Shown here one piece after another: positions 3,136 through 27,711 of a DNA stretch of 32,059 bases. Made by a program: the position numbers and the translations under genes. Origin of the DNA: a virus; IMG/VR virus record IMGVR_UViG_3300048997_000314, positions 1 to 32,059 of that record; one strand, 5' to 3'. A model generated the notes under the pieces. That model was given only the letters and a program-made list of their open reading frames with translations. It made no database searches and was not told the DNA's origin. How positions within the stretch are numbered: the stretch's first letter is position 1; every line of letters begins with the position of its first letter.

Positions 3136-3819
3136 ATGCCCGAGGAAACAACAGTTGCAGCCGCAGTCCTCGCCGTCGCGCACCTTGCCAAACCCATCGT
3201 CGAATCGGGATGTCGGTTCGCAGAGATTTTGCTGGGAAAGCCGATGAAGGCCGCGGCGGGGTTGATTGCCGACCAGATCTACGCCTGGCAGCTGACTAAT
3301 CGGGTGCGCGTCGCAGCCATGGCGAAGGAGAAATGCGATGCCGCCGGCATTCATCCTCGAAAGATCGCCACCGGCTTTCTACTGCCATTCTTCGAAGCCG
3401 CCGGCAACGTCGATGCGACGGACCTTACGGAACTATGGGCCAAACTGCTCGTCTCCGCCGTGTCCGACGATGCAGCACAACACCCGCTATACATTAGAAC
3501 CCTTGAGGGAATGAACGGTGCGGATGCGGCACTTTTGTATGAGCTCGCTGACCCCATAGCATCGCACCGGAAGGGCCGGGGCTACTGTCGGATCGTCGTT
3601 GAGGGCAAACCCGGTCCTACGGATGCGGCGATTGCACGACTCCTCTCGCTTAGCCTCCTAAGCCGCGGAGAGCGTATCGGCGACAAAATCGACGGTGAAC
3701 ATGCGACGTTCGACGTATTGGCGTTAACGCCCTTCGCATGGCAGCTGATCGGCGTCATCATGCCTGAACGCGCCATCGGAGTAGGACAACATCCGCATCC
3801 CTACGTTCACCCGTTCTGA
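3136..3819 (+). CDS. Abi-alpha / DUF4393-like protein (possible phage-defence gene)
   Basis: 227 residues. The middle part, 'VDATDLTELWAKLLVSAVSD' (near residue 95) followed by 'HPLYIRTLEGMNGADAALLYEL', matches the conserved core of the DUF4393/Abi-alpha family, where a 'LxxLFxxLLxxA' helix precedes 'HPxFxxIIxxLSPDEAxIL'. The N-terminus (residues 5-45) has mildly hydrophobic helices also typical of the family. Some members are linked to abortive infection; the mechanism is not known to me. It stands alone with its own promoter between the replication genes and a leftward operon, as expected for a moron expressed in the lysogen. A host-protective superinfection role is inference. It carries no start ribosome site, consistent with leaderless translation. 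Confidence 0.6.
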   Translation: MPEETTVAAAVLAVAHLAKPIVESGCRFAEILLGKPMKAAAGLIADQIYAWQLTNRVRVAAMAKEKCDAAGIHPRKIATGFLLPFFEAAGNVDATDLTELWAKLLVSAVSDDAAQHPLYIRTLEGMNGADAALLYELADPIASHRKGRGYCRIVVEGKPGPTDAAIARLLSLSLLSRGERIGDKIDGEHATFDVLALTPFAWQLIGVIMPERAIGVGQHPHPYVHPF

Positions 3820-8674: not shown

Positions 8675-10174
8675 ATGGGATTTCTCAACCGATTTCGGAA
8701 GGCGGGGGCCGCACTGTTCGCAGCACAGAGCGGGTACGACGCCGTGTCCAACAGCGGCCGCCGCAAGCCCCCCTCCGCCCGCGTCCTGTCGGAGGACCAG
8801 GAGCTACGCGCGCACCACCGCCGCGCCATGGCGACGGGCACGCGGAACCTCCAGCGCAACTTCACCATTGCCGCCTGGGCAATCCGCAAGCACCTGGATT
8901 TTCTCACCAGCTTCAGTTTCCAGGCAAAAACGGGAAACAAGGACCTCGATAAGCAGGTGACGGAATTCGTGAAGTGGTGGTCGAAGCCGATGAATTTCGA
9001 CGCCGCGGGCCGCCACGGGCTCCGGCGGTTTCTCCGTCTGGTCGAGGCTCGGCGTACGCTCGACGGCGATATTCTGGTCAATCGGCTGGCCGACGGGCGG
9101 TTGCAGGGCATCGAGGGCGATCGCATCCAATCCGAAGGCGGAACGCCGTACGACACGCTGGGGATCGACCCTATGAAGGTCGTGCTGGGCGTTTACCTGA
9201 ACGACAACGGCAGGGCGAATGGGTACATGGTGTACAAGCGACCTTTCCATCGGGTCGCGCTCGTGTGGGACAAATACATCCCCGCGCTCTTCGCCGACCT
9301 GGTCGGATATTTCGATCGGTTCGATCAAGTGCGCGGCATCTCGCCGATGGCGCCGGGGATCAACTCCCTCCAGGACATCTACGAAAACTTCGATTACGCA
9401 CTGGCCAAGGCCAAGGTCGCACAGCTCTTCGCCCTGGCCATCACCCGGAAGGCAAGTGAGGCGATCGGAGCCCTCGAGGAAGATGAAGAACCGGCCACCG
9501 CTCCCGACGGCAGCATTACGAACGGCACCACCACGCTACCCCAAGCCGACGACGAGGCCAGATATAAAATCAATTTCGGCAAGGGCCCGATGGTGCTCGA
9601 CCTCGACGAAGGGGATGACGCCAAGATCCTTCAGGACCAGACTCCCAGCGACCAGTTCCAGGCGTTCACGCAGGCCATGATCATGGTCGCGATCAAGGCC
9701 CTGGACCTCCCGTTCTCGTTCTACGATGAGTCGCATACCAACTGGGTCGGCCAGCGTCAGGCGAACGCCCAGTACATGTTGTCAGCGTCTATCAAGCGAC
9801 AGGACCTGAGGGACCTGCTGGACAAGTGGACCGACTGGCGACTGCGCATGGCCGTTATGGATGGCGATATCGAGCTGCCTGCGGGGTACACGGCAAGCGA
9901 GCTGGACTGGGACTGGGTACCCACCGGAATCCCGCCCGTCGATCCGCTGAAGGAAGTGACGGCGGACGTCGCCGAAGTGAACGCCGGCTTCAGCAGCCCG
10001 CAGAGAAAGTGCCGCGAAAGAGGTGACGACTACTTTCAGATCATCGACGAGAAGGCGGAGGCCGAACAGTACGCGGCCGATAAGGGCGTGAAGCTCTCGA
10101 CTGTCCTCCCACAGATGTTCCCCGACAACACCGATGGCGGCTCATCAGGAAAGCAAAATGACCAACAAAACTGA
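8675..10174 (+). CDS. Phage portal protein, lambda gpB type
   Basis: 499 residues, in the size range of lambda-family portals. 'RAMATGTRNLQRNFTIAAWA' and 'IRKHLDFLTSFSFQAKTGNK' (residues 48-90) are the characteristic N-terminal region where random packaging orders of helices give way to the wing; 'GDILVNRLADGRLQGIEGDR' follows, with 'HRVALVWDKYIPA' and 'RGISPMAPGINSLQDIYENF' in the stem/clip part. The portal forms the twelve-subunit ring through which DNA enters the head. The terminase, normally just upstream, is about 10 kb downstream. The stop overlaps the protease gene by 17 bases. Confidence 0.88.
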   Translation: MGFLNRFRKAGAALFAAQSGYDAVSNSGRRKPPSARVLSEDQELRAHHRRAMATGTRNLQRNFTIAAWAIRKHLDFLTSFSFQAKTGNKDLDKQVTEFVKWWSKPMNFDAAGRHGLRRFLRLVEARRTLDGDILVNRLADGRLQGIEGDRIQSEGGTPYDTLGIDPMKVVLGVYLNDNGRANGYMVYKRPFHRVALVWDKYIPALFADLVGYFDRFDQVRGISPMAPGINSLQDIYENFDYALAKAKVAQLFALAITRKASEAIGALEEDEEPATAPDGSITNGTTTLPQADDEARYKINFGKGPMVLDLDEGDDAKILQDQTPSDQFQAFTQAMIMVAIKALDLPFSFYDESHTNWVGQRQANAQYMLSASIKRQDLRDLLDKWTDWRLRMAVMDGDIELPAGYTASELDWDWVPTGIPPVDPLKEVTADVAEVNAGFSSPQRKCRERGDDYFQIIDEKAEAEQYAADKGVKLSTVLPQMFPDNTDGGSSGKQNDQQN

Positions 10175-11407: not shown

Positions 11408-12358
11408 ATGAATACATTACTCGACATCGCGAAAATGAACGGCAGCGATGCCGTTGTGGGCCTCATCGACGAAACGACCAAGCTCCACCCCGAGATTACG
11501 AGCGTCGCGGCCCGCACCATCCGGGGCCTGATGTACAAAACGCTCGTGCGGACGGGGTTGCCGACGGCAGGATTTCGAAACGCCGGCGAAGGCGCGACGC
11601 CCAGCAATAGCGTCTACGAAAATCGCCTGGTCGAAACCTACATCCTTAACCCGATGTGGCAGTGCGATCGGGCGGTGGCCGACAAGCACGAGGACGGTGC
11701 CGAGGCCTTCATCGCGCTCGAAGGCGAGGGCATGGTCGAAGCGGCCTTCCAGACGCTGGCCCGACAGTTCTATTACGGTGCGGCGAACGGTGGCGACGCC
11801 AAGGGCCACCCCGGTCTGATCGACGCTTACGACTCGACCAACATGGTCGTCGACGCTGGTGGCACGACGGCCAATACCGGGTCGAGTGTCTGGCTCGTCA
11901 AAACCGACGTCAAGAACGTGCAGTGGGTGTATGGCGCGGACGGCTCGCTTGACCTGTCGGACGTCACCACCCAGCGCGTGGCCGATCCGAACAATGCGAA
12001 CAAATATCTGACAATGTATCTTCAGGAGCTGCTGGCATACCCGGGCCTGCAGGTCGGCAGCATCCGAGGCGTTTGCCGGATCAAAAAGCTCACCGCCGAC
12101 GTCGGCCACACCCTCACCGACGCCGTGCTGGCGCAGGCGATCGCAAAGTTCCAAGCCGGCATTCGCCCGGACCTGATCCTGATGGGCCGGCGATCGCGCT
12201 CACAGCTCCAGCAGTCGCGCACAGTAACACTGTTCGGCAACAGCTCGGGGAAGCCGGACGGCGGTAACGCGACGGTCGCGCCGACCCCGACCGAGTACGA
12301 GGGGATTCCGATCAAGGCGACGGATGCGATCCTCGACACCGAGTCGCTAACGCTCTAA
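11408..12358 (+). CDS. Major capsid protein (HK97 fold)
   Basis: 316 residues. The N-terminus 'MNTLLDIAKMNGSDAVVGLI' followed by 'PEITSVAARTIRGLMYKTLV' and 'RTGLPTAGFRNAGEGATPSN' is the typical opening of a large capsid family of siphophages; 'GGTTANTGSSVWLVKTDVKN' corresponds to the conserved central strand region, and 'FYYGAANGGDAKGHPGLIDA' to the loop before it. The protein would build the icosahedral shell. It is preceded by the scaffold gene and followed by a cement-type protein. AAAGGACCGGAG lies about 8 bases before the ATG. The gene is complete, with no large insertion. Confidence 0.85.
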   Translation: MNTLLDIAKMNGSDAVVGLIDETTKLHPEITSVAARTIRGLMYKTLVRTGLPTAGFRNAGEGATPSNSVYENRLVETYILNPMWQCDRAVADKHEDGAEAFIALEGEGMVEAAFQTLARQFYYGAANGGDAKGHPGLIDAYDSTNMVVDAGGTTANTGSSVWLVKTDVKNVQWVYGADGSLDLSDVTTQRVADPNNANKYLTMYLQELLAYPGLQVGSIRGVCRIKKLTADVGHTLTDAVLAQAIAKFQAGIRPDLILMGRRSRSQLQQSRTVTLFGNSSGKPDGGNATVAPTPTEYEGIPIKATDAILDTESLTL

Positions 12359-15854: not shown

Positions 15855-16294
15855 CGTTCTACCGCATCCCCAAGTCAAACTTCTTCGACCGGGACAAGGT
15901 CGCTAAGGCGATGGACTCCGCCGGCCGCCGCAACCTTTCTCGGGCGGGCGCGTTCGTTCGCACGGTCGCACAGCGGTCGATGCGCTACACCAACTACTGG
16001 TTCAAGCACTCCCAGCGCGGGCAACCGCCGCTGGCCCACCGCCAGAACCCTCTGCTCCGCAAGCTGCTGTTCTTCGCCTACGACCCCGCGAACAAGTCCG
16101 TCGTCACCGGTCCGGTCCGCGCCAAGGGCGGCTTAGTGCCGCGGCTACTCGAGGAAGGGGGAACGACGACCGTCAATCACAAGGGCGTCCGGCGTCAGGT
16201 GCGCGTCGAGCCCCGTCCTTACATGGGTCCCGCTCTATCGCAGACAAAGCGAGACCTGGCCAACCGCTGGAAGGATTCGGTGAAACGTGGCTGA
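15851..16294 (+). CDS. HK97 gp10-like tail completion / virion morphogenesis protein
   Basis: 147 residues from GTG 15851, overlapping the previous stop by 4 bases (GTGA). A basic helical N-terminus ('GRRNLSRAGAFVRTVAQRSM') is followed by 'LLFFAYDPANKSVVTGPVRA', 'RLLEEGGTTTV' and 'EPRPYMGPALSQTKRDLANR'. The 'xxVxxGP...EEGG...RPYMxPAL' order is that of HK97-gp10-like and Mu gpG-like morphogenesis proteins. These usually precede the tail tube gene; here the gene stands between chaperone and tape measure. It may join the tail to the head. Confidence 0.6.
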   Translation: MTFYRIPKSNFFDRDKVAKAMDSAGRRNLSRAGAFVRTVAQRSMRYTNYWFKHSQRGQPPLAHRQNPLLRKLLFFAYDPANKSVVTGPVRAKGGLVPRLLEEGGTTTVNHKGVRRQVRVEPRPYMGPALSQTKRDLANRWKDSVKRG

Positions 16295-18281
16295 TTCAGG
16301 AGCGATTCGTGCCGGGCGGGCCTTCGTGGAGATTTTCACGCAGGACGTGGAGTTCCAGCGCGGTCTGAAGGCGATCTCGACCAAGATGCGCGCATGGGGT
16401 GCCACGATGACCAGTGTCGGCACCAAGGCCGTCGCCGGAGGTCTGGCCCTCGCCGGCCCGCTCGCCGGTGCCGCCAAGATCTTCGCGGACATGGGGGATG
16501 AGCTGGCTAAGGCCAGCACGCGGACGGGGGTGAGCGTGGAGCAGCTCTCGCGACTCAAATATGCCGCTGACCAATCGGGTTCCTCATTGGAAGGGCTGGA
16601 AAACGGTCTGAAGAAGATGGCCAAGACGATCGTGGCTGCCGGTGATGGCAATCCCGAGGCGGTCGAGTCCTTGCGCGACATCGGTCTGTCGGTTAACGAT
16701 TTGGCCAAGCTCTCACCTGACGAGCAGTTCGTATCGATCGCTAACGCAATTTCGCAAATCCCCAACCCGACGAACCGGGCGGCCGCGGCGATGAAGATCT
16801 TCGGCAAGAACGGTACCGAACTTCTTCCGCTGATGGTCGACGGCGCGAAGGGCATCAACGCGCTGATCGAACAGGCCAACAAGCTCGGTCTGGTGATGAG
16901 CACCGAGGACGCGAAGGCCGCCGAGGAGTTTGGCGACCGCATGAGCGACCTCTGGGCCGTCGCCAAGTCCGTTGCGTTCACGATCGGTGGGGCGGTTGCA
17001 CCGGTCATCCGAATCGCAGCCATCCAGCTCGCTGCCGCGGGCAAGGTGATCAAGGAGTTTGTCCAGGAGCACCGCGGACTGGTGATCGGCGTCGCAGCCG
17101 TGGCGGTGGGCTTGCTGGCGGCAGGCGCCGCTGCGCTGGTGATGGGAACGGCCTTCTCGGTCGTGGGGGGGTTGATCGGAACCGGAATCACCTTGGTGAG
17201 CGGCTTTGTCTCCGTGATGGGCACCATTGGTGCCGCCGTCGCCTCCCCGCTGGGGATTCTGATCGCTGGCATCGCAGCCGGGATTGTCGCCATTTACAAA
17301 TTCACCGACGCCGGCGCATACCTCACCGACACGTTGGGCCCGGTCTTCCAGGATCTTCAAGGTATCGCCCTCGAGGCGTTCGGCGGCATTAAGGACGCGC
17401 TGGCCGCGGGCGACTGGCAGCTCGCCGCCCAGATTGCATGGGCGGGGCTCAAATACGCATGGACGGCCGGCGTGGGAGTGCTGAAGCAAGTCTGGGCCGA
17501 CTTCAAGGGCTGGTTCGTGCAGGGGGCAGTCAACATCTTCGCAGGGATTCTGTCGGCGTGGGTCATCGTGAACAACGCGCTGGACGAGGCGTGGGTCAAC
17601 ACCGTCACCGCCTTCGAGCACGTGTGGGACGCTTTTGCCGACATCGTCCTGAGCGTGTGGGACAGCGTTGCCGGCACGCTGAAGAAGGGCTGGAATGAAC
17701 TCAAGGGAGTATGGGACAGCCTCTTCGGCGACGGGACTTTCGACGTCCAGGCGGCCAACCGGCAAGTAGACCAGCAGAGCAGCAAGAACTTTTCCGACCG
17801 TGAGAACGCCCGTGCCGCAAAATATGCGCAGGAGGAGGCGGAGCGGAAGGCGAAGATCGACGCCCTCCAGAGGGATTACGAGCAGAAGCTCTCCGCGATC
17901 TCCGACGGGGCGACCGCCTTCACGGACACGGACAAGCAGGGGACCGACCAGGAGCTGAGGGACCTAAAGGCAAAGCTCGATGCCGCCAAGGCCGAGCAGA
18001 AGACCCACATCCGCGAGATGGCCTCGCGCGCCGCCAAGGAGCGTAAGGAAACCGCCCCCGATCTGCCCACCGCCCCCTCCCAGTTCTCCGACGCCATGGA
18101 GTTCGGCAACGCCAAGACCAACGCGGCCGGCACGTTCAACCCCAACGCGCTGTTCGGGTTCGGGGGCGGCAGCGTGGTGTCTCGTATTGAGGTGAACACG
18201 CGCAAGACCTACGAGGCCCTCGACAAATACAAGAACAGGATGACCGGTGCGGGCCAGTGGGCGGTGATCCCAGGAGCATAA
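16287..18281 (+). CDS. Tail tape measure protein
   Basis: 664 residues from GTG 16287, overlapping the previous gene by 8 bases. The N-terminus ('AFVEIFTQDVEFQRGLKAIS') and the following helices ('ELAKASTRTGVSVEQLSRLK') are typical of tape measure proteins, with 'MKIFGKNGTELLPLM' near residue 170. Residues about 255-345 hold several long hydrophobic helices rich in Gly/Ala/Val, thought to serve DNA entry. The C-terminal third (about 490-600) is charged and coiled-coil-like ('YAQEEAERKAKIDALQRDYE'). Tape measure length sets tail length; by the usual rule of about 1.5 angstrom per residue, 664 residues suggest a tail near 100 nm. No lytic domain is visible. Confidence 0.85.
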   Translation: MADSGAIRAGRAFVEIFTQDVEFQRGLKAISTKMRAWGATMTSVGTKAVAGGLALAGPLAGAAKIFADMGDELAKASTRTGVSVEQLSRLKYAADQSGSSLEGLENGLKKMAKTIVAAGDGNPEAVESLRDIGLSVNDLAKLSPDEQFVSIANAISQIPNPTNRAAAAMKIFGKNGTELLPLMVDGAKGINALIEQANKLGLVMSTEDAKAAEEFGDRMSDLWAVAKSVAFTIGGAVAPVIRIAAIQLAAAGKVIKEFVQEHRGLVIGVAAVAVGLLAAGAAALVMGTAFSVVGGLIGTGITLVSGFVSVMGTIGAAVASPLGILIAGIAAGIVAIYKFTDAGAYLTDTLGPVFQDLQGIALEAFGGIKDALAAGDWQLAAQIAWAGLKYAWTAGVGVLKQVWADFKGWFVQGAVNIFAGILSAWVIVNNALDEAWVNTVTAFEHVWDAFADIVLSVWDSVAGTLKKGWNELKGVWDSLFGDGTFDVQAANRQVDQQSSKNFSDRENARAAKYAQEEAERKAKIDALQRDYEQKLSAISDGATAFTDTDKQGTDQELRDLKAKLDAAKAEQKTHIREMASRAAKERKETAPDLPTAPSQFSDAMEFGNAKTNAAGTFNPNALFGFGGGSVVSRIEVNTRKTYEALDKYKNRMTGAGQWAVIPGA

Positions 18282-19982: not shown

Positions 19983-22073
19983 ATGTTCGGGCTGCGCACC
20001 AAACCTCGTCCTGATGCGTCGGCGGGGAACCGCACGCGCGGCCAGGCCAAGCGCGATCGGGAGAATGCGCGCGGCCGCCGCCTGTCCGAGGCCGTACGGG
20101 ACATCGGGGATTGCCTCCCGCCGCTCAATCCCGCCCGACGGGAAGCATGCAAATACGACTACCGCCGGTTCTGCGAGACGTACTTCCCCGAGATCTTCTA
20201 CCTGCCCTGGTCCACCGACCACCTCAAAGCGATTGCCAAAATCGAGCGGGCGGTTCTCCACGGGGGCCTGTTTGCGCTGGCGATGCCCCGCGGCGCCGGC
20301 AAAACGACGCTGGCCCAGATCGCGGTGGTTTGGGCCCTGCTGTATGGTCATCGCCAGTTCGTCTGCCTTATCGCAGTCACCGACGCCAAGGCCCAAAGCA
20401 TCCTGGCCAACGTCAAGGCCGTCCTGAACACCAACAAACTCCTCGCCGAGGACTTCGACGAGGTCTGCAAGCCGATCCGCGCCATCGAGAACGACGCCCG
20501 GCGGTGCGCCGGTCAGCTCTGCAACAAGCACAAAACGAACATCGTCTGGCACACCCAGAAGGTCGTCCTGCCGACGGTGGCCGGAGCGGTCGCTTCCGGT
20601 TCGATCGTCACCGCCTGCGGCCTCACCAGCAGCATCCGCGGACAGAACCACACGCTGCCCGGGGGCACCATCATCCGTCCCTCCCTCGTGATCGTCGACG
20701 ATCCCCAGGACCGCGAGAGCGCCAACTCCGAGAGCCAGTGTCAGCAGCGCGTCGCCACCCTCAGCGGTGATGTTCTCGGTCTTGCCGGCCCGGGCGAGAA
20801 GATCGCCGGCGTAATGCCGTGCACCGTCATCCGCAGTGGCGACATGGCCGATCAGATCCTCGACCGCCAGCAGCACCCCGACTGGCAGGGCGAGCGTTGC
20901 AAGATGATCTATTCGTTTCCCAGCAATACGGCCATGTGGGAGCGGTACACGAAACTTCGTGTCGAGAGCTTGCAGACGGACGGGGTGGGGCAGGAAGCGA
21001 CCGATTTCTATGCAGAGCATCAGGCGGAAATGGACTTGGGGGCGGTCGTCGCCTGGCCGCAGCGGTTCAACAAGGACGAAATTTCCGCCCTCCAGAACGC
21101 CATGAACCTCAAGCTGAGGGATGAGGCGGCGTTCTGGGCGGAGTACCAGAACGAGCCGAAAGTGAGCCGTGCGGAGGCGCCCATGCTCAAAGCAGAACAC
21201 GTCGTCCGGAAGCTCAACGGGCTGGGCCGGGGGACGTTGCCCCTTGACGTCCAGCATATAACGGCCTTTGCCGACGTCCACGATGCGCTCATTTACTACG
21301 CAGTCGTCGGCTGGACCCACGACAGCTTCTCCGGCTTCATTGCGGATTACGGGGCGTGGCCAGATCAGGGCCGCCGCTACTTCACCAAGCGAGAGGCCGA
21401 GCGAACGCTCCAACGGGTGGCGCCGGGCGCCGGGAAAGAGGGGGCTATTACCCTCGGGCTGCAATCTTTGACGGCCGACCTATTTACCCGTGAATGGCGG
21501 CGCGAGGACCAGACGACGTTGCCGATCTCCAGGCTGTTGATAGACGTGGGATATGTGCCCGACACCGTTTACGGCTTCATCCGGGCCAGCGCGTATCGGT
21601 CCTCTCTCATGGGGAGCAGGGGGATCGGCATCGGAGCGGCGCATAAGCCGATGTCGGAGTATCGACGGCTGCCGGGCGAACAACTCGGTTACAACTGGAT
21701 GATCCCGCGCCCCGCCGGCCGCGAACTCCAGCATGTGAAATTCGACGCCAACTTCTGGAAGACCTTCATCCACGAGCGATTCGGGCTGCCGCTGGGCGAG
21801 AAGGGGACGCTCACGCTCTGGGGGAACGACGGGCAGGAACATCGGCTGATCGGCGATCATGTCACCGGTGAATACGGGACGGCTACCGAGGGGAGAGGCC
21901 GAAAAGTCATCGAGTGGCGCCAGCGCCCCAATCGCCCCGACAACCACCTCCTCGACTGCCTGGCTGGCTGCGCCGTCGGCGCCAGCATGTGCGGTTGTGG
22001 CGGTAGGGGGGGTGCCACGGGGACTCGAGCTTGGAAAAGGAAACGCCCGCGCGTGTCTTACATGGAGGAGTGA
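19983..22073 (+). CDS. Terminase large subunit
   Basis: 696 residues. The ATPase half has Walker A 'AMPRGAGKTT' near residue 101-108 and Walker B 'LVIVDDPQD' near 235-242. The nuclease half shows conserved acidic strands: 'AFADVHDALIYYAVVGW' near residue 428 and 'DNHLLDCLAGCAVGA' near 652, plus 'RLLIDVGYVPDTVYGFI' near 520. The enzyme cuts concatemeric phage DNA and pumps it into the head through the portal. It is longer than many terminases (400-600 residues), closer to lambda gpA type. The gene lies downstream of the tail genes and not before the portal. A Gly/Cys-rich stretch (VGASMCGCGGRGGATG) near the C-terminus is odd. Confidence 0.88.
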   Translation: MFGLRTKPRPDASAGNRTRGQAKRDRENARGRRLSEAVRDIGDCLPPLNPARREACKYDYRRFCETYFPEIFYLPWSTDHLKAIAKIERAVLHGGLFALAMPRGAGKTTLAQIAVVWALLYGHRQFVCLIAVTDAKAQSILANVKAVLNTNKLLAEDFDEVCKPIRAIENDARRCAGQLCNKHKTNIVWHTQKVVLPTVAGAVASGSIVTACGLTSSIRGQNHTLPGGTIIRPSLVIVDDPQDRESANSESQCQQRVATLSGDVLGLAGPGEKIAGVMPCTVIRSGDMADQILDRQQHPDWQGERCKMIYSFPSNTAMWERYTKLRVESLQTDGVGQEATDFYAEHQAEMDLGAVVAWPQRFNKDEISALQNAMNLKLRDEAAFWAEYQNEPKVSRAEAPMLKAEHVVRKLNGLGRGTLPLDVQHITAFADVHDALIYYAVVGWTHDSFSGFIADYGAWPDQGRRYFTKREAERTLQRVAPGAGKEGAITLGLQSLTADLFTREWRREDQTTLPISRLLIDVGYVPDTVYGFIRASAYRSSLMGSRGIGIGAAHKPMSEYRRLPGEQLGYNWMIPRPAGRELQHVKFDANFWKTFIHERFGLPLGEKGTLTLWGNDGQEHRLIGDHVTGEYGTATEGRGRKVIEWRQRPNRPDNHLLDCLAGCAVGASMCGCGGRGGATGTRAWKRKRPRVSYMEE

Positions 22074-22074
22074 T

Positions 22075-22719
22075 ATGGCAGGAACGAACTTCAAACCGGC
22101 GGTCAGCGGTGACTCGATCCAGTTCAGCGCCAATTGGCTGAATGCCGTCAACAACGCCGCTCAGGCGCGGCGCAAGGCGCCGATGTCAGGAGGAGCGCCC
22201 GAGCTGGATATACATGCCGCTGAAGGGCTCATCTTCATCCGAAACGACAGCGGCGCCGACGTCCCCCAGTTCGGGATACTTGGCATCCACAACGTGCTGA
22301 TCGACCCCGCAACGAATCTGACGGCATTCAAGAACGATCCCGCCCTGATCGGCGTCGTGCCGACCACCGCCGACCACAAGGGCAAATTCGTTGTGTGCAA
22401 CGGGCCGCTCCCAAAGGACACCATCGGACGTGCTTGGCTGTTCGGCTACTTTCCCGTCCAGATCAACTTCGCTTCGGCGACGGACACCTTCGCCGACGTG
22501 AAAGACTCCGACGTCACCCAGCTCGCCAGCTCCGGCTCACCAGCCCCATTACAGATCCTCTGGTCACCCGGTGCGACCGGGACGCAATGGGCGCTGGCCC
22601 GCCTGGCTGGCGGCGGGGGAGGAACTATCAGCGGCGGGCAATATCAATACATGCTTTATCAGATGGTCGCCCAGCGGCAGACCGGCTGGGGCTTCGCGAA
22701 GGGTCACCCGCTTATCTGA
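22075..22719 (+). CDS. Unrecognised virion protein, probably tail/fibre associated
   Basis: 214 residues from ATG 22075, with GGAGGAG 7 bases upstream, overlapping the end of the terminase gene's ribosome region by one base gap. N-terminal helix 'FSANWLNAVNNAAQARRKAP', then a beta-rich body 'LIFIRNDSGADVPQFGILGI', 'GKFVVCNGPLPKDTIGRAWL', 'LQILWSPGATGTQWALARLA', and a Gly-rich end 'GGGGGTISGGQYQYMLYQMV'. The style (native contact with 'NDSGADVPQFGILGI') is known to me from conserved unknown proteins upstream of large fibre genes in planctomycete prophages. Function unknown; an anchor for the following adhesin is plausible. Confidence 0.6.
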   Translation: MAGTNFKPAVSGDSIQFSANWLNAVNNAAQARRKAPMSGGAPELDIHAAEGLIFIRNDSGADVPQFGILGIHNVLIDPATNLTAFKNDPALIGVVPTTADHKGKFVVCNGPLPKDTIGRAWLFGYFPVQINFASATDTFADVKDSDVTQLASSGSPAPLQILWSPGATGTQWALARLAGGGGGTISGGQYQYMLYQMVAQRQTGWGFAKGHPLI

Positions 22720-22726
22720 GCACAAC

Positions 22727-25700
22727 ATGGGCTGGACAGGATTCCCCGCCACCTCCGGGACCGACATTCAGGACTACCGGTTCGTCGCGCAGATCCCCCG
22801 CGCGATCCGCGAGCGGTATTGGCCCGTGGCGGGGAACTGGCCGCCGGGCAACTTCCAGTGGGTCACGGGCACCGTCACCGGCGTTACCGACAACGGCGAC
22901 GGGTCATACACCGTCAGCCACGCCTCGGACGGGACCGCGACCAACCGCTGGTTCAACTTCACGGGCCACAGCCCCACCCCCGTCAACTACGACCTTGTCT
23001 TCGACGACAACTTCAACGAGGACCAGGTCGTCCACGTCCGCATCTACGGCAGCACCGCGACCAGCTTCAAAATCGATTCGGCCACTGACCACGTCATCGC
23101 CGACCTCGCCACGGGCGCTTTTCTCTACCCCAACGTCACCATTACCGGGATCCTTTCGTCGCTGACGGGCCGCACCTACCGTGTCATCCAGCGCGGGGGC
23201 GAGTGGTGGCACGAGCGGTGGTTGCCGTGGCCCAACGATCAGGAGCAATGGGCCGACCTCGCTTTGGCCGCCGGGGCGCTCCAGCCGGCCACGTCGCTCA
23301 CCAGCGACGGCATGACCACCGCAACCGCCGTCGTCACCGGCCACCAATTCATTACCGGTGACAGCGTCGCCATCGCCGGGGCCGTCAGCGGCGGCTCGCA
23401 ATTCAACGGCACCTTTTCCGTGACCGTGGTGGACGCCGACACGTTCACCTACACGCTGGCCGCGCCCGACGATTTAGTTGCGACCGGCACAATCACCGCC
23501 AAATGTACCGCCGTCGGTGCCCATGATGCCGCGGCGGCATATCCGGCGGGCGCATGGGCCAGTGGCTACCAACTCATGGTGAACGGGAGCGATACGCTCC
23601 TGAAGCGCATCACGCTCACCGGCAACGACGCCACCAACCTCTACTTCGCCCGCCAGAGCTACACCGTCAGCGGACAGTACGCCGTCGTCGCCGCGACGAA
23701 CACGCTGGGCAATCCCAGCCGGTGGCGGTTCTACACCCTCATCAACGCCCTGTGCAGCTACAACGCGATGGCCGCGACGAACAGCCCCGGTCAGGTGTTC
23801 CTCTGGTACCACTCTCTTTTCGACAACTACAGGACCCGCCTCCCGACCAACCCCACCGACACCCTCGGCACGACCAAAGTCCCGGCCAATTCCATCACGC
23901 TCAACGACGGCACGGGGACGCCCTACCAGCAGGCCGTTTTCGACACCGACTATTTCACGCCCTTCACCGACACCCACAACCCGCCGGACAAAAACTACAC
24001 GCCCGATTACTGGCGGACGATCCGCTCCTGGCAGGTGGCCCTCGAGAACCTGGTGGGAAACATCCCCGCCGCCTCGTCCTACGTCGCCCCCGTCAGCTAC
24101 GAAGGGGCGCAGGCAATCCCCTCGTTCGTCTGCGCCACGTGGTTCGAATACGCCGGCATCAACGCCCGCCGCGGAGCCACTTCGACCACCAGCGGCGGGG
24201 GCATCACCATCAGCGGGTTCTCGGGATTCTTCCCCTACTTCCCCCGGAACGTCTACTTTGCCGTTCTCGACACCGCCACCGGTGACGTCATCTCGGCCGG
24301 CACGGGCTCAGTCAGCAGCGCCACGCACCTCGACAAGGACGTCGGCACCTTCGGGCCGTCGGAGCAGAGCCAAACCCTCGTCATCTCGCTGGGGTGGACG
24401 CGCAACTACGACGACGAATTCCTCTACCTGTACGACAAGAAGTGCTGGGTCCCGACGCCCGACGCGATCACCGGCAACGCGATCGACCCGCCGACCAGCG
24501 CCAGCCCGGGATCATTCACGTTCCGCGGGAAGAGCGCCAAGTACAAAGAGCACGGCGGCACGGGGATCGTCAACGAGGTCAACGGCTTTCGATCTTTCGT
24601 CGACGGCGAATTCGCCCGCTACAGCGGGGACAATTGGAACGACCCTACCATCCACCCGGAGATCCCCGCCACCGACACGCACGGGTTTCAGAGCTACTAC
24701 AACAACTTTTACGAGGGCCTCAAAGACGACGCGACACAGGCGGCTTTGACGGCCGTCATGGCCGGCACCGTCACCGACTCCGACACCATGTGGATCGCCG
24801 ACGGCGCGCAGAACTGGTGGCCGGGCGGGGTGCTGCACACCGAGAGCGGCACGGCCACCGGCGGCAGCACCGCCGACCTGACCGACACTACTAAAAACGG
24901 CAACGGCTTTTGGGGACTGCCCGCCGCCGGCATGCTGGGCAACGTGGTCAAGGTGACCATTTCGGGGATCGATTACTACCGCGTGGTCACCGCCCACTTC
25001 GGCAACTCCCCGGCACAAATCTTCTGGGGCGACGCCCTCCCGAGTTCGGCCAGCGGGAAAACCTACTCGATTCGCTGGCCGAAATACGAGATGAACCGGT
25101 GGAACGGGTTGACGCTGCACATGGTCTACCCCGACGCCAGCATCCACGACGTCGCCATCACGGCCAGCGACGACCAGCGGATTTTCTTTACGGCCCTTGC
25201 CTCTGCCCCGCCCGTCGGGACCACCTACACGATCACCGGCCTGCACTTCCCCGGCGGCGTGTGGCAGTGGAGCGCGTCTCAGTCGAAGTGGATCGTCCCC
25301 ACCGGCAACGACCCGCGGACGGGGACGCCGTGGATGCCGGACCAGACGGCCAACCTTCCCACGCGGTACACCAACTACGGCCGGTTCATGAAGGGGGATT
25401 ACGTCCAGCTCCTGTTCGACGAGATGCAGCGGGCGTGCAACGCGCTGGTCCACACCAAGGCGATCGCCGGCTGGAGTTCGCAGGGCGCGAATAACTACCA
25501 GTTCGGCCAGGTCAACGGCGAACCGGACGCCGGCGGAACCGGGTTTGGGACGGCCCAAACCACCGCCAAGGCCAATTACGCCGGCAGCGGCGGGCCGAGC
25601 AGCGCCAACCCCTTCGCATGCTCCTACACCAAAACCACGTGCAACGGCGGCGGCGGCCCGATCGCCTGCTACGATTACGCGGTCGGGCGGCGCTACGCCT

Positions 25701-26089
25701 ATGGGACCGCCACCAACGCCGTCAACATCCAGAGCAGCGGCACGGACTGGTACGCCTTTTCGGTCATCCCCGCGAACCCCGCCACCGGCGGCTTGCCCGG
25801 CCAGCCGGCCAGTGGGTCATGCCCCGCCGTGGCGGTTTTCGACGCCAACGGGGACGGCGCGATTCTCAACGCCTGGCACCGCTACAGTTCCGACGGCGCC
25901 AGCAGCAGCAGTTCCCGCGCGAGCGGAACGCCGATGGGCGACACGGGACTCCCGGCGCCCACCGACGTCGGGCCGGCCCCGGCGTCTTGCCCCACGAATT
26001 GCAGCTGGTACCAGGGCTACGTCGTCCAAAACAACGGGATTTGCATTTTCCGATGGAACGTGGGGGGTGGAGGGTTTAATTTCCGATGA
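22727..26089 (+). CDS. Giant tail fibre / receptor-binding adhesin
   Basis: 1120 residues from ATG 22727 (start after the previous stop; no strong ribosome site). Residues about 190-255 form an Ig-like phage module ('TATAVVTGHQFITGDSVAIA', 'FNGTFSVTVVDADTFTYTLA'). The rest is strand-rich, with many aromatic and Asn/Gly turns. Near residue 1038 'VFDANGDGAILNAW' looks like a dockerin-type calcium loop, and a Ser-rich run 'SSDGASSSSSRASG' follows near 1053-1068. The C-terminus has eight or more Cys residues ('CSYTKTTCNGGGGPIACYDY', 'CPTNCSWYQGYVV'), suggesting disulfides outside the cell. It likely binds the host surface. Its stop overlaps the next gene's ATG. Confidence 0.7.
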   Translation: MGWTGFPATSGTDIQDYRFVAQIPRAIRERYWPVAGNWPPGNFQWVTGTVTGVTDNGDGSYTVSHASDGTATNRWFNFTGHSPTPVNYDLVFDDNFNEDQVVHVRIYGSTATSFKIDSATDHVIADLATGAFLYPNVTITGILSSLTGRTYRVIQRGGEWWHERWLPWPNDQEQWADLALAAGALQPATSLTSDGMTTATAVVTGHQFITGDSVAIAGAVSGGSQFNGTFSVTVVDADTFTYTLAAPDDLVATGTITAKCTAVGAHDAAAAYPAGAWASGYQLMVNGSDTLLKRITLTGNDATNLYFARQSYTVSGQYAVVAATNTLGNPSRWRFYTLINALCSYNAMAATNSPGQVFLWYHSLFDNYRTRLPTNPTDTLGTTKVPANSITLNDGTGTPYQQAVFDTDYFTPFTDTHNPPDKNYTPDYWRTIRSWQVALENLVGNIPAASSYVAPVSYEGAQAIPSFVCATWFEYAGINARRGATSTTSGGGITISGFSGFFPYFPRNVYFAVLDTATGDVISAGTGSVSSATHLDKDVGTFGPSEQSQTLVISLGWTRNYDDEFLYLYDKKCWVPTPDAITGNAIDPPTSASPGSFTFRGKSAKYKEHGGTGIVNEVNGFRSFVDGEFARYSGDNWNDPTIHPEIPATDTHGFQSYYNNFYEGLKDDATQAALTAVMAGTVTDSDTMWIADGAQNWWPGGVLHTESGTATGGSTADLTDTTKNGNGFWGLPAAGMLGNVVKVTISGIDYYRVVTAHFGNSPAQIFWGDALPSSASGKTYSIRWPKYEMNRWNGLTLHMVYPDASIHDVAITASDDQRIFFTALASAPPVGTTYTITGLHFPGGVWQWSASQSKWIVPTGNDPRTGTPWMPDQTANLPTRYTNYGRFMKGDYVQLLFDEMQRACNALVHTKAIAGWSSQGANNYQFGQVNGEPDAGGTGFGTAQTTAKANYAGSGGPSSANPFACSYTKTTCNGGGGPIACYDYAVGRRYAYGTATNAVNIQSSGTDWYAFSVIPANPATGGLPGQPASGSCPAVAVFDANGDGAILNAWHRYSSDGASSSSSRASGTPMGDTGLPAPTDVGPAPASCPTNCSWYQGYVVQNNGICIFRWNVGGGGFNFR

Positions 26090-27711
26090 GGTACGACCGC
26101 GAAATCAACCTCATTCAGTCCGGCCGCCCGCAGGAGGCGATATCGCTTCTCCTGGCGAAGGTGGCCACCGTCAACGACGACCCCGACCTCTACACCAACC
26201 TCGCCCTCGCCTTCGAAGACGTCGGGGAATTGGCCCGTGCCGAGGGCGGCTACCGGATGATCCTGTCGCGCTGGCCCGGGCATGTGGAGGCGTCGGTCAA
26301 TTACGGCGACCTGCTGGCCCGCGCTAGTCGATTCGAAGAGGCCGCGGCGGTCCTGTCTGCCAGCCCCCACCCGCACTGCCGGGCGGCGCTCGCGATGGTC
26401 AAGATCGAGCAGCTGCGCGTCGCCGAAGGACTGGCCGACATCAAGGCCGTTGCCGACGAGAGCGACAACGCTTTCGCGGCGTCGGTGCACTTGGGCTACT
26501 CCCTCCACCAGGGCTACGACCGCGCGGCGCACGAGGCGTGGCTGAAACGATTCGTGCCGTGGCACGCGACCGCGCCGTCGAAGTGGGACGGCAATCGCCC
26601 CATCCGCATCGGCTACACCGGTGACGTGTTCCGCCACTGCGCCGTCGCGTCGATGCTGGAGCCGGTGCTGGCGAATCACGACCGGGCCCGCTTCACGCCC
26701 TACGTCTACTCCGACGTGATGCCGCCCGACGCCACGACCGAACGGATGATGGCCCTTGCGCCCAACTGGCGCGACACCCGGGGCCTGTCCGACGCCGAAT
26801 TGGCGCAGCAAATCCGCCAGGACAGTATCGACGTGCTCATTGACACCCAGGGCCACAAGCTGGGCAGCCGGATCATGGTTCACGCCATGCGCCCCGCCCC
26901 AATCCAATTTACCTACATCGGTTACGCCGGCGACACGCTCATCGGCCGCAACATCGACCGCGAAGTCGGCTGGGCCTACCGCCCCTCAGACGACGCCCCG
27001 CCCGTGTCGGAGTCGCCTGCAATTCGCAACGGCTTCGTCACGTTCGGATCGGTCAACCGCGCCGCCAAGATCAACCAGGGCGTCGCCGCGGCATGGGGGA
27101 GGATCCTCACCAACGTGCCCACCTCCCGGCTGATCGTCGTCGTGAAGGGCGGCGAATCCAACCGTGTTGCCCGTCAAATGCTCAGCTCTGCCGGCATCCC
27201 CGGCGACCGGCTGGAGCTGGTCGATCGACCCGCGGCGCATGCCGATTACCTTCGGCTCGCCGATCGCTTCGACCTGCACCTCGACACCTTCCCCTACGGC
27301 GGGGGCGCTACCGCGTGCGACATGCTGTGGCAGGGCGTGCCGTCGATCGTGCTTCGCGGGGACGAATATTCGATGGGGGACAAATTATTGGGGGCGGTGG
27401 GATTGGCGGGACTCGTTGCGGGGGATCAGGCGGAGTACGTCGCCAAGGCGTCGACCGAATTGCAAACGCTGGCGGGACTTCGGGCGACGATGCGGAGCCG
27501 AATGCAAACGTTGGTGGACGGGGCGCTGGTGTCGCGGCGGCTGGAGTCCCTGTGTCTGACAGCCGCGGCCACGACCGCCACACCGCCGGTGGCATGTTGC
27601 GACCGAGCCCACCGTCGCTCAATCAACCTGCCGCCATTAACCAGGCGGTTTTTTTATGCGCCGCGCTTTCCCTTCCGCCTCTTTCGGTTCCGGCCTCGGA
27701 ACTGGTCGTAA
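26086..27711 (+). CDS. TPR plus GT41 (O-GlcNAc transferase / SPINDLY-like) glycosyltransferase
   Basis: 541 residues. Residues about 5-120 hold about three TPR-like helix pairs ('DPDLYTNLALAFEDVGELAR', 'ASVNYGDLLARASRFEEAAA'). From residue 172 the protein follows the OGT catalytic fold: 'RIGYTGDVFRHCAVASMLEP' with Asp180 and the key His184 in the D-x3-H spacing of OGT; 'RPAPIQFTYIGYAGDTLI'; Lys354 in 'LIVVVKGG', matching the UDP-binding Lys; and 'DLHLDTFPYGGGATACDMLW' near 395-415. The family moves GlcNAc or another sugar from a UDP-type donor to Ser/Thr. The 4-base overlap with the adhesin gene suggests it modifies that protein; this is inference. The last 45 residues are atypical and run through a terminator, so the true C-terminus may differ. 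Confidence 0.82.
   Translation: MRYDREINLIQSGRPQEAISLLLAKVATVNDDPDLYTNLALAFEDVGELARAEGGYRMILSRWPGHVEASVNYGDLLARASRFEEAAAVLSASPHPHCRAALAMVKIEQLRVAEGLADIKAVADESDNAFAASVHLGYSLHQGYDRAAHEAWLKRFVPWHATAPSKWDGNRPIRIGYTGDVFRHCAVASMLEPVLANHDRARFTPYVYSDVMPPDATTERMMALAPNWRDTRGLSDAELAQQIRQDSIDVLIDTQGHKLGSRIMVHAMRPAPIQFTYIGYAGDTLIGRNIDREVGWAYRPSDDAPPVSESPAIRNGFVTFGSVNRAAKINQGVAAAWGRILTNVPTSRLIVVVKGGESNRVARQMLSSAGIPGDRLELVDRPAAHADYLRLADRFDLHLDTFPYGGGATACDMLWQGVPSIVLRGDEYSMGDKLLGAVGLAGLVAGDQAEYVAKASTELQTLAGLRATMRSRMQTLVDGALVSRRLESLCLTAAATTATPPVACCDRAHRRSINLPPLTRRFFYAPRFPFRLFRFRPRNWS
27631..27655 (+). terminator. Rho-independent terminator at the end of the late operon
   Basis: CCGCC (27631-27635) pairs with GGCGG (27644-27648) across an 8-base loop, followed by seven T's (27649-27655). 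It lies inside the last codons of the glycosyltransferase frame, about 60 bases before its stop, and marks the end of the rightward late transcript. Confidence 0.65.

Follow-up and report, generated by a model that had tools for sequence, protein, structure and literature searches.

The virus record IMGVR_UViG_3300048997_000314 of IMG/VR (positions 1-32,059, a linear stretch of 32,059 bases that was analysed as a whole and is here called the window) contains at the end of its late genes an open reading frame (ORF) for a divergent member of glycosyltransferase family 41 (GT41), directly behind the gene of a giant putative adhesin. Comparison with a second virus suggests that this gene pair is passed on jointly from virus to virus and that the attachment protein is the substrate to which the enzyme adds sugar. 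We are evenly divided between acceptance and doubt concerning the full reading, i.e. glycosylation of the adhesin by the divergent GT41 encoded with it, within a mobile two-gene attachment cassette. An initial annotation made from the letters only had proposed a phage-borne O-GlcNAc-transferase-like enzyme with this function; its family assignment and gene coupling are supported by the present data, and its sugar and catalytic residues had to be revised.

The observation of a GT41 protein is real and far beyond chance because the Pfam score, the confident structural model and the best solved relatives, which are all GT41 proteins, agree. The 541-residue frame matches PF13844 (Glyco_transf_41) with 82.9 bits (E=2e-23; curated cut-off 25) in two blocks that align to profile positions 78-192 and 368-525, and tetratricopeptide repeat (TPR) models are matched as well; the copy in the second virus reaches 73.4 bits. 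Thus the Glyco_transf_41 and TPR search on which the initial annotation had let its assignment depend returned both families. The AlphaFold2 model was built on 68 aligned sequences and is confident throughout (predicted local distance difference test score, pLDDT, 93; predicted template modelling score 0.90). It shows the GT-B double Rossmann fold with N-terminal TPRs, and the top 50 Foldseek matches of the model are all GT41 with SPINDLY from Arabidopsis as nearest solved structure. PHROG provided no name for the enzyme, and NCBIfam gave TPR matches alone, all below cut-off.

As already read in the initial annotation, the start codon of the enzyme gene overlaps the stop codon of the adhesin gene (ATGA). 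A GGAGGG is found upstream of this start within the adhesin gene, and translational coupling of both genes is likely. The second virus, IMGVR_UViG_3300048997_000489 (G001), the sole source of a further orthologue, has both genes in the same order with the overlap kept, at 71% (adhesin) and 77% (enzyme) amino acid identity. A blastn comparison of the window with G001 gave one block in common (window 22771-27558, 75.5%), whereas a masked search outside this block found no DNA match and, at the protein level, one 23% portal match only; the capsid and tail protein families of the two viruses differ. The two genes have been transferred jointly and, because the rest of G001 is without similarity apart from this portal match, adhesin, enzyme and the tail of the upstream gene look like an exchanged cassette. 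As these phages, unrelated in other respects, have just the block with this gene pair in common, the coupling of enzyme and adhesin is better supported than before. The initial annotation had regarded unrelated neighbours of the enzyme gene as a counter-argument; both orthologous copies lie behind the adhesin, and distant phage GT41s are found elsewhere. That the block is a mere sign of two closely related genomes was rejected, since it stands alone in the genome comparison.

On the sequence comparison the cassette starts within the upstream gene, of which it takes in the C-terminal ~27 residues, and its 3' edge is the enzyme end. A tblastn piece with 67% identity covers residues 260-286 of a longer reading of the upstream ORF, i.e. 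its C-terminal 27 residues (22636-22716), and the tail GQYQ..MVAQRQTGW.F...HPLI is common, in almost identical form, to the 214-residue window protein and an otherwise different 87-residue protein of G001 (about 9905-9987 of locus L004), in each case directly before the adhesin. A loose motif search found this tail in none of the other 90-odd loci. It is possibly an attachment or docking peptide carried with the cassette. A GT41 is absent from all 49 other phage records with a terminase or capsid in common with the window (0/49), so the enzyme goes with the adhesin and not with the phage backbone, and its classification as a backbone gene was rejected. The capsid relative L088 has a different 390-residue protein at the corresponding place.

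Between the enzyme copies of the window and G001 the nonsynonymous divergence (dN) is 0.17 and the synonymous divergence (dS) 0.69 over the gene, corresponding to a dN/dS of about 0.25 (about 0.11 in the donor-binding lobe and about 0.23 in the TPRs). By these ratios the enzyme gene is under purifying selection. Amino acid identity amounts to 93% in the donor-binding lobe and 65% in the TPRs, but recombination inside the cassette may inflate the former value because dS is uneven and lower in this lobe (0.40 versus about 1.06). Also along the whole length of the two cassettes (window 22727-27510 versus L004 10001-14880) dS falls into blocks, with ~0.4 in adhesin residues 161-320 and 641-800 and in the enzyme C-lobe and values up to 0.9-1.07 elsewhere, a pattern pointing to recombination within the cassette.

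The G001 enzyme ends directly after a shared Cys-Cys while the window copy reads on for 36 codons to a stop at 27709. As the relative stops there and a terminator-like hairpin lies inside the additional stretch, the C-terminal ~36 residues were probably added by loss of a stop codon, with the ancestral end near residue 505 (about 27600). The number of such hairpin matches does not exceed the shuffled background and the argument is thus one of position; the hairpin likely represents the end of the late transcript. A transcript ending at 27630-27656 would be without an in-frame stop codon.

Assignment of functional residues is based on an alignment of the window and G001 enzymes with 66 bacterial and 7 other viral GT41 sequences, with positions taken from PMC10027727 (donor signatures) and PMC9715652 (SPINDLY numbering). 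The catalytic positions named initially do not stand. The supposed Asp180-x3-His184 motif is shifted by one position: G-D-V-F-R-H-C-A-V pairs, ungapped, with the canonical S-P-D-F-R-x-H-x-V, and therefore the Asp and His columns correspond to V181 and C185 in both phages. With phmmer against SPINDLY the Asp and His are recoverable, but only via two compensating gaps. In the model the preceding strand ends at residue 179 and the next helix starts at 186, which is the loop length expected for the ungapped reading when the SPINDLY loop is derived from its sequence. This N-lobe pair is not strictly diagnostic of the GT41 family. Likewise, the lysine of the catalytic fold is not Lys354 but the invariant K328 (K842 in human O-GlcNAc transferase, OGT; K665 in SPINDLY).

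The donor pocket retains Y404 (SPINDLY Y744), D412 (OGT D925) and T409 (T749/T922), and N324 and the GH motif are kept as well. The UDP-GlcNAc signature of OGT (L866/R904/C917) and the GDP-fucose signature of SPINDLY (K689/A731/Y744) both align with V352/L391/Y404, where V352 is the only residue similar to the former and Y404 the only one matching the latter. This mixed signature is less compatible with UDP-GlcNAc than with UDP-hexose or GDP-fucose, and Y404 would argue against an N-acetyl sugar donor. The O-GlcNAc activity assumed in the initial annotation is not borne out by the SPINDLY-like Y404 together with V352 and L391, which match neither signature, and a plain O-GlcNAc transferase was rejected since the OGT donor signature is missing.

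If read from the ATG at 22727 the adhesin has 1120 residues, as initially stated, and both the serine run (at about 1058-1063) and the cysteines (12 in the protein) are present. Searches in Pfam, PHROG, NCBIfam and PDB gave no match to a known fibre or tailspike, and no match was found in annotated phages. In 392 + 399 bacterial genomes a generic domain of ~70 residues alone was matched, and outside residues ~183-270 the adhesin is without a detectable family. This domain occurs as tandem repeats in ORFs of ~1600 residues in 12 of 399 genomes, from the phylum of Niveispirillum; from their sequence features we take these ORFs to resemble PilY1-type pilus-tip proteins. Further carriers, named by the same kind of recognition, are phage-like proteins.

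Neither the window enzyme nor a bacterial GT41 domain matched anything in 50,697 GenBank phages. Motif scans of IMG/VR, which require exact short motifs, revealed at least six further viral GT41 lineages (L187, L188, L189, L190, L191 and L192/L193/L194/L195). Some of these genes are located between or near terminase and portal genes and none adjoins this adhesin. On the viral contig L190 (3211-5838) consecutive genes for a sulfotransferase, a methyltransferase and a canonical GT41 are flanked by terminase and portal genes. In a FastTree reconstruction of the catalytic domain the phage pair sits on a long branch that joins three betaproteobacterial GT41s (support 0.93), and the other viral GT41s form separate branches. 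In this nearest clade the Pseudothauera GT41 adjoins a flagellin-like gene, as judged from the N-terminal sequence of its product. Bacterial genome scans gave no close copies of the enzyme (best 45%). A contig of a Pirellulales metagenome-assembled genome (L102:1781-12306) bears a tandem array of four genes, two of GT41 type and two more resembling TPR glycosyltransferases. In the open literature that was searched no described phage GT41 was found, save one virome table that names GT41 among annotated enzyme families.

Among known systems the protein O-fucosyltransferase SPINDLY (SPY; PDB 8dti, 7y4i) is closest, being the best PDB match by sequence (E 8e-55) and having a TM-score of 0.90 (normalised by query) at 27% identity. 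Both proteins combine TPRs with GT-B and have no intervening domain, and K665, Y744 and N661 correspond to K328, Y404 and N324. The phage enzyme differs in V352 at the position of the essential guanine-binding K689, L391 (A731), V181/C185 (D491/H495) and G407/A408 (T747/T748); furthermore, it has far fewer TPRs and lacks ~25 inter-lobe residues. Human OGT and the bacterial OGT-like proteins (Thermobaculum 5djs, Xanthomonas 2jlb) are less similar than SPINDLY but have the same GT41 fold, with K842, D925 and T922 equivalent to K328, D412 and T409. Unlike OGT, the phage enzyme has no intervening domain and shows L391, Y404 and A408 instead of R904, C917 and T921. The other phage GT41s in IMG/VR, which are also on viral contigs, retain the canonical inter-lobe segment and mostly the D-x3-H motif, unlike the phage pair.

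With respect to gene neighbourhood, HMW1C-like GT41 N-glucosyltransferases are encoded beside adhesins (HMW1A, EtpA) on which they act or are proposed to act (PMC3983070). The close linkage of a gene for a soluble GT41 with one for a giant surface adhesin and the proposed cytosolic modification (PMC3983070) resemble the present case, whereas HMW1C is bacterial and carries an AAD domain where the phage enzyme has TPRs, and its adhesins are two-partner secreted and not virion proteins. The helical AAD domain in place of TPRs was not seen in the phage enzyme, which matches TPR models, and no HMW1C structure is among the PDB matches listed. In the account given by PMC12363180 (citing Freeman 2023) glycosyltransferases of the mycobacteriophages Che8, Corndog and Myrna modify the phages' own capsid and tail proteins. 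The targets named there are capsid and tail tube and not a receptor-binding protein travelling with its enzyme; family membership of these enzymes was not compared, but the GT41 queries had no match in the 50,697 phage records. By analogy, HMW1C-like GT41s and mycobacteriophage virion glycosylation may serve as precedents for an adhesin-modifying enzyme.

The late genes of the window all point rightward in the order portal, head-maturation-protease-like gene, capsid, tape measure, terminase, 214-residue protein, adhesin and enzyme (see the table), which agrees with the late-operon setting described initially. The large terminase gene is 3' of the tape measure gene here and 5' of the portal gene in the relatives examined. 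The body of the 214-residue protein is weakly similar to a tail-region protein of L088 (21%, E 4e-6). The capsid protein had no match in the 8 genomes or records in which it was looked for. In the early region the ORF 3136-3819 (+) matches the Pfam family Abi_alpha (abortive infection alpha) with 37.6 bits (cut-off 29).

Table. Positions of the features discussed, in window coordinates
Feature	Position	Strand	Basis or remark
Portal	8675-10174	+	
Head-maturation-protease-like gene	between portal and major capsid protein	+	
Major capsid protein	11408-12358	+	
Tape measure	16287-18281	+	
Large terminase	19983-22073	+	
Upstream late gene, 214 residues, putative virion protein	22075-22719	+	ATG at 22075
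Putative adhesin / receptor-binding protein, 1120 residues from ATG 22727	22727-26089	+	71% identity to G001 copy
Generic surface-protein domain of ~70 residues in adhesin (residues ~183-270)	23270-23540	+	domain matches in other proteins
ATGA overlap, adhesin stop (TGA) / GT41 start (ATG)	26086-26089	+	overlap also in G001
Divergent GT41 glycosyltransferase (TPR + GT-B), 541 residues as read	26086-27711	+	PF13844, fold, alignment
TPR superhelix, residues 1-165	26086-26580	+	Pfam TPR_19; ten helices in model up to residue 156
N-lobe loop with V181 and C185	26626-26640	+	canonical GT41: Asp, His (D491/H495 in SPINDLY)
Shortened inter-lobe linker (DTLIGRNIDREVGWAYRP)	26929-26985	+	alignment columns
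K328, invariant GT41 lysine (K842 in OGT, K665 in SPINDLY)	27067-27069	+	invariant column, 68 sequences
Donor pocket Y404-G-G-G-A-T409-A-C-D412	27295-27321	+	alignment
Terminator-like hairpin with T-run, within extension	27630-27656	+	position

Phage proteins are known to be glycosylated. Here, the adhesin and its dedicated cytosolic GT41 would be made together late in infection. The short TPR arm might hold an extended segment of freshly made adhesin and present it to the GT-B domain, which, ahead of fibre assembly on the virion, would transfer a single sugar from a host nucleotide sugar to adhesin side chains. The adhesin so modified would differ in its stability, folding or receptor binding. 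A wider claim comprises a receptor-binding module of fibre and private glycosyltransferase which unrelated phages exchange, a new GT41 subfamily of compact form that works without N-lobe Asp/His or inter-lobe segment, and a donor other than UDP-GlcNAc and GDP-fucose; this combination is put forward tentatively and we consider it doubtful.

Several findings weigh against a GT41 that modifies its own adhesin. Of the donor-binding residues which had been expected to be intact, the lysine, the Asp, the Tyr and one Thr are kept; lost are T747 and T748/T921 (now G407/A408), an Arg conserved at 97% in the 66 bacterial relatives and the N-lobe Asp/His pair, replaced by V181 and C185 in both phage copies, and in SPINDLY the exchanges H495A/F abolish activity (PMC9715652). 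Moreover, ~25 inter-lobe residues of bacterial GT41s (D..PPG..YSEKLxRLP) are missing in both copies: alignment columns 426 (D, 100%), 431 (P, 95%) and 442 (E, 100%) of the bacterial sequences are gaps in both phages. With regard to the adhesin, SSSSS of the window is NNSSS in the relative, so the Ser-rich run is only partly conserved and provides weak evidence for acceptor sites. Its AlphaFold model, calculated from two sequences, failed (pLDDT 27), and for this reason the label of a putative receptor-binding protein rests on position, size and the surface-type domain. Only two copies of the cassette were found, and enzyme activity, the adhesin as acceptor, its receptor binding and the effect of the sugar are the parts that we infer.

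The losses just listed, namely N-lobe Asp/His, the donor-contacting Thr pair, the near-invariant Arg and the inter-lobe segment, would also be expected if the protein were a non-catalytic assembly factor, i.e. an inactive GT41 that acts as TPR chaperone in folding or attaching the adhesin. Its gene follows directly after a fibre-like gene, and chaperone genes are often found 3' of phage tail-fibre genes. However, K328, T409, D412, Y404, N324 and the GH motif are retained and the donor lobe is the best conserved part, while a pure chaperone should conserve its binding arm; this argument is weakened to the extent that donor-lobe identity reflects recombination. We regard such a factor as unlikely, though deserving some weight. 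The enzyme might instead glycosylate a host surface protein, such as flagellin or pilin, to which the adhesin binds as its receptor, and in this way exclude superinfecting phages, with both genes fitted to the same receptor. As a family TPR-GT41s modify proteins, the GT41 beside a flagellin-like gene belongs to the nearest bacterial clade, and joint transfer fits receptor-matched exclusion equally well. Against this, the enzyme would be made late because its gene is the last in the run of virion genes with its start overlapping the adhesin stop, and exclusion is of little use at that time; furthermore, a GT41 works on cytosolic protein before export and the late infected cell makes mostly virion protein. 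This host-directed role appears distinctly unlikely to us. Finally, both genes could be chance neighbours, the enzyme being moron cargo or a decaying gene and the shared block a single recent exchange of a longer tail region without functional link. The low number of cassette copies, the location of distant phage GT41s near other genes and the probable stop-loss at the C-terminus of the window copy are in line with this possibility, but adhesin and enzyme have diverged together to 71-77% identity with the overlap kept and a dN/dS well below 1, and the block extends from the final codons of the gene preceding the adhesin to the enzyme end. Mere coincidence is given little probability.

Should the GT41 indeed glycosylate its own adhesin, and phages pass on an attachment protein along with the glycosyltransferase that modifies it, receptor specificity would not be set by sequence alone but could also depend on a sugar added after translation. 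If the enzyme is active, GT41 chemistry needs no N-lobe Asp/His, which would bear on the debate over the catalytic base in OGT and SPINDLY.

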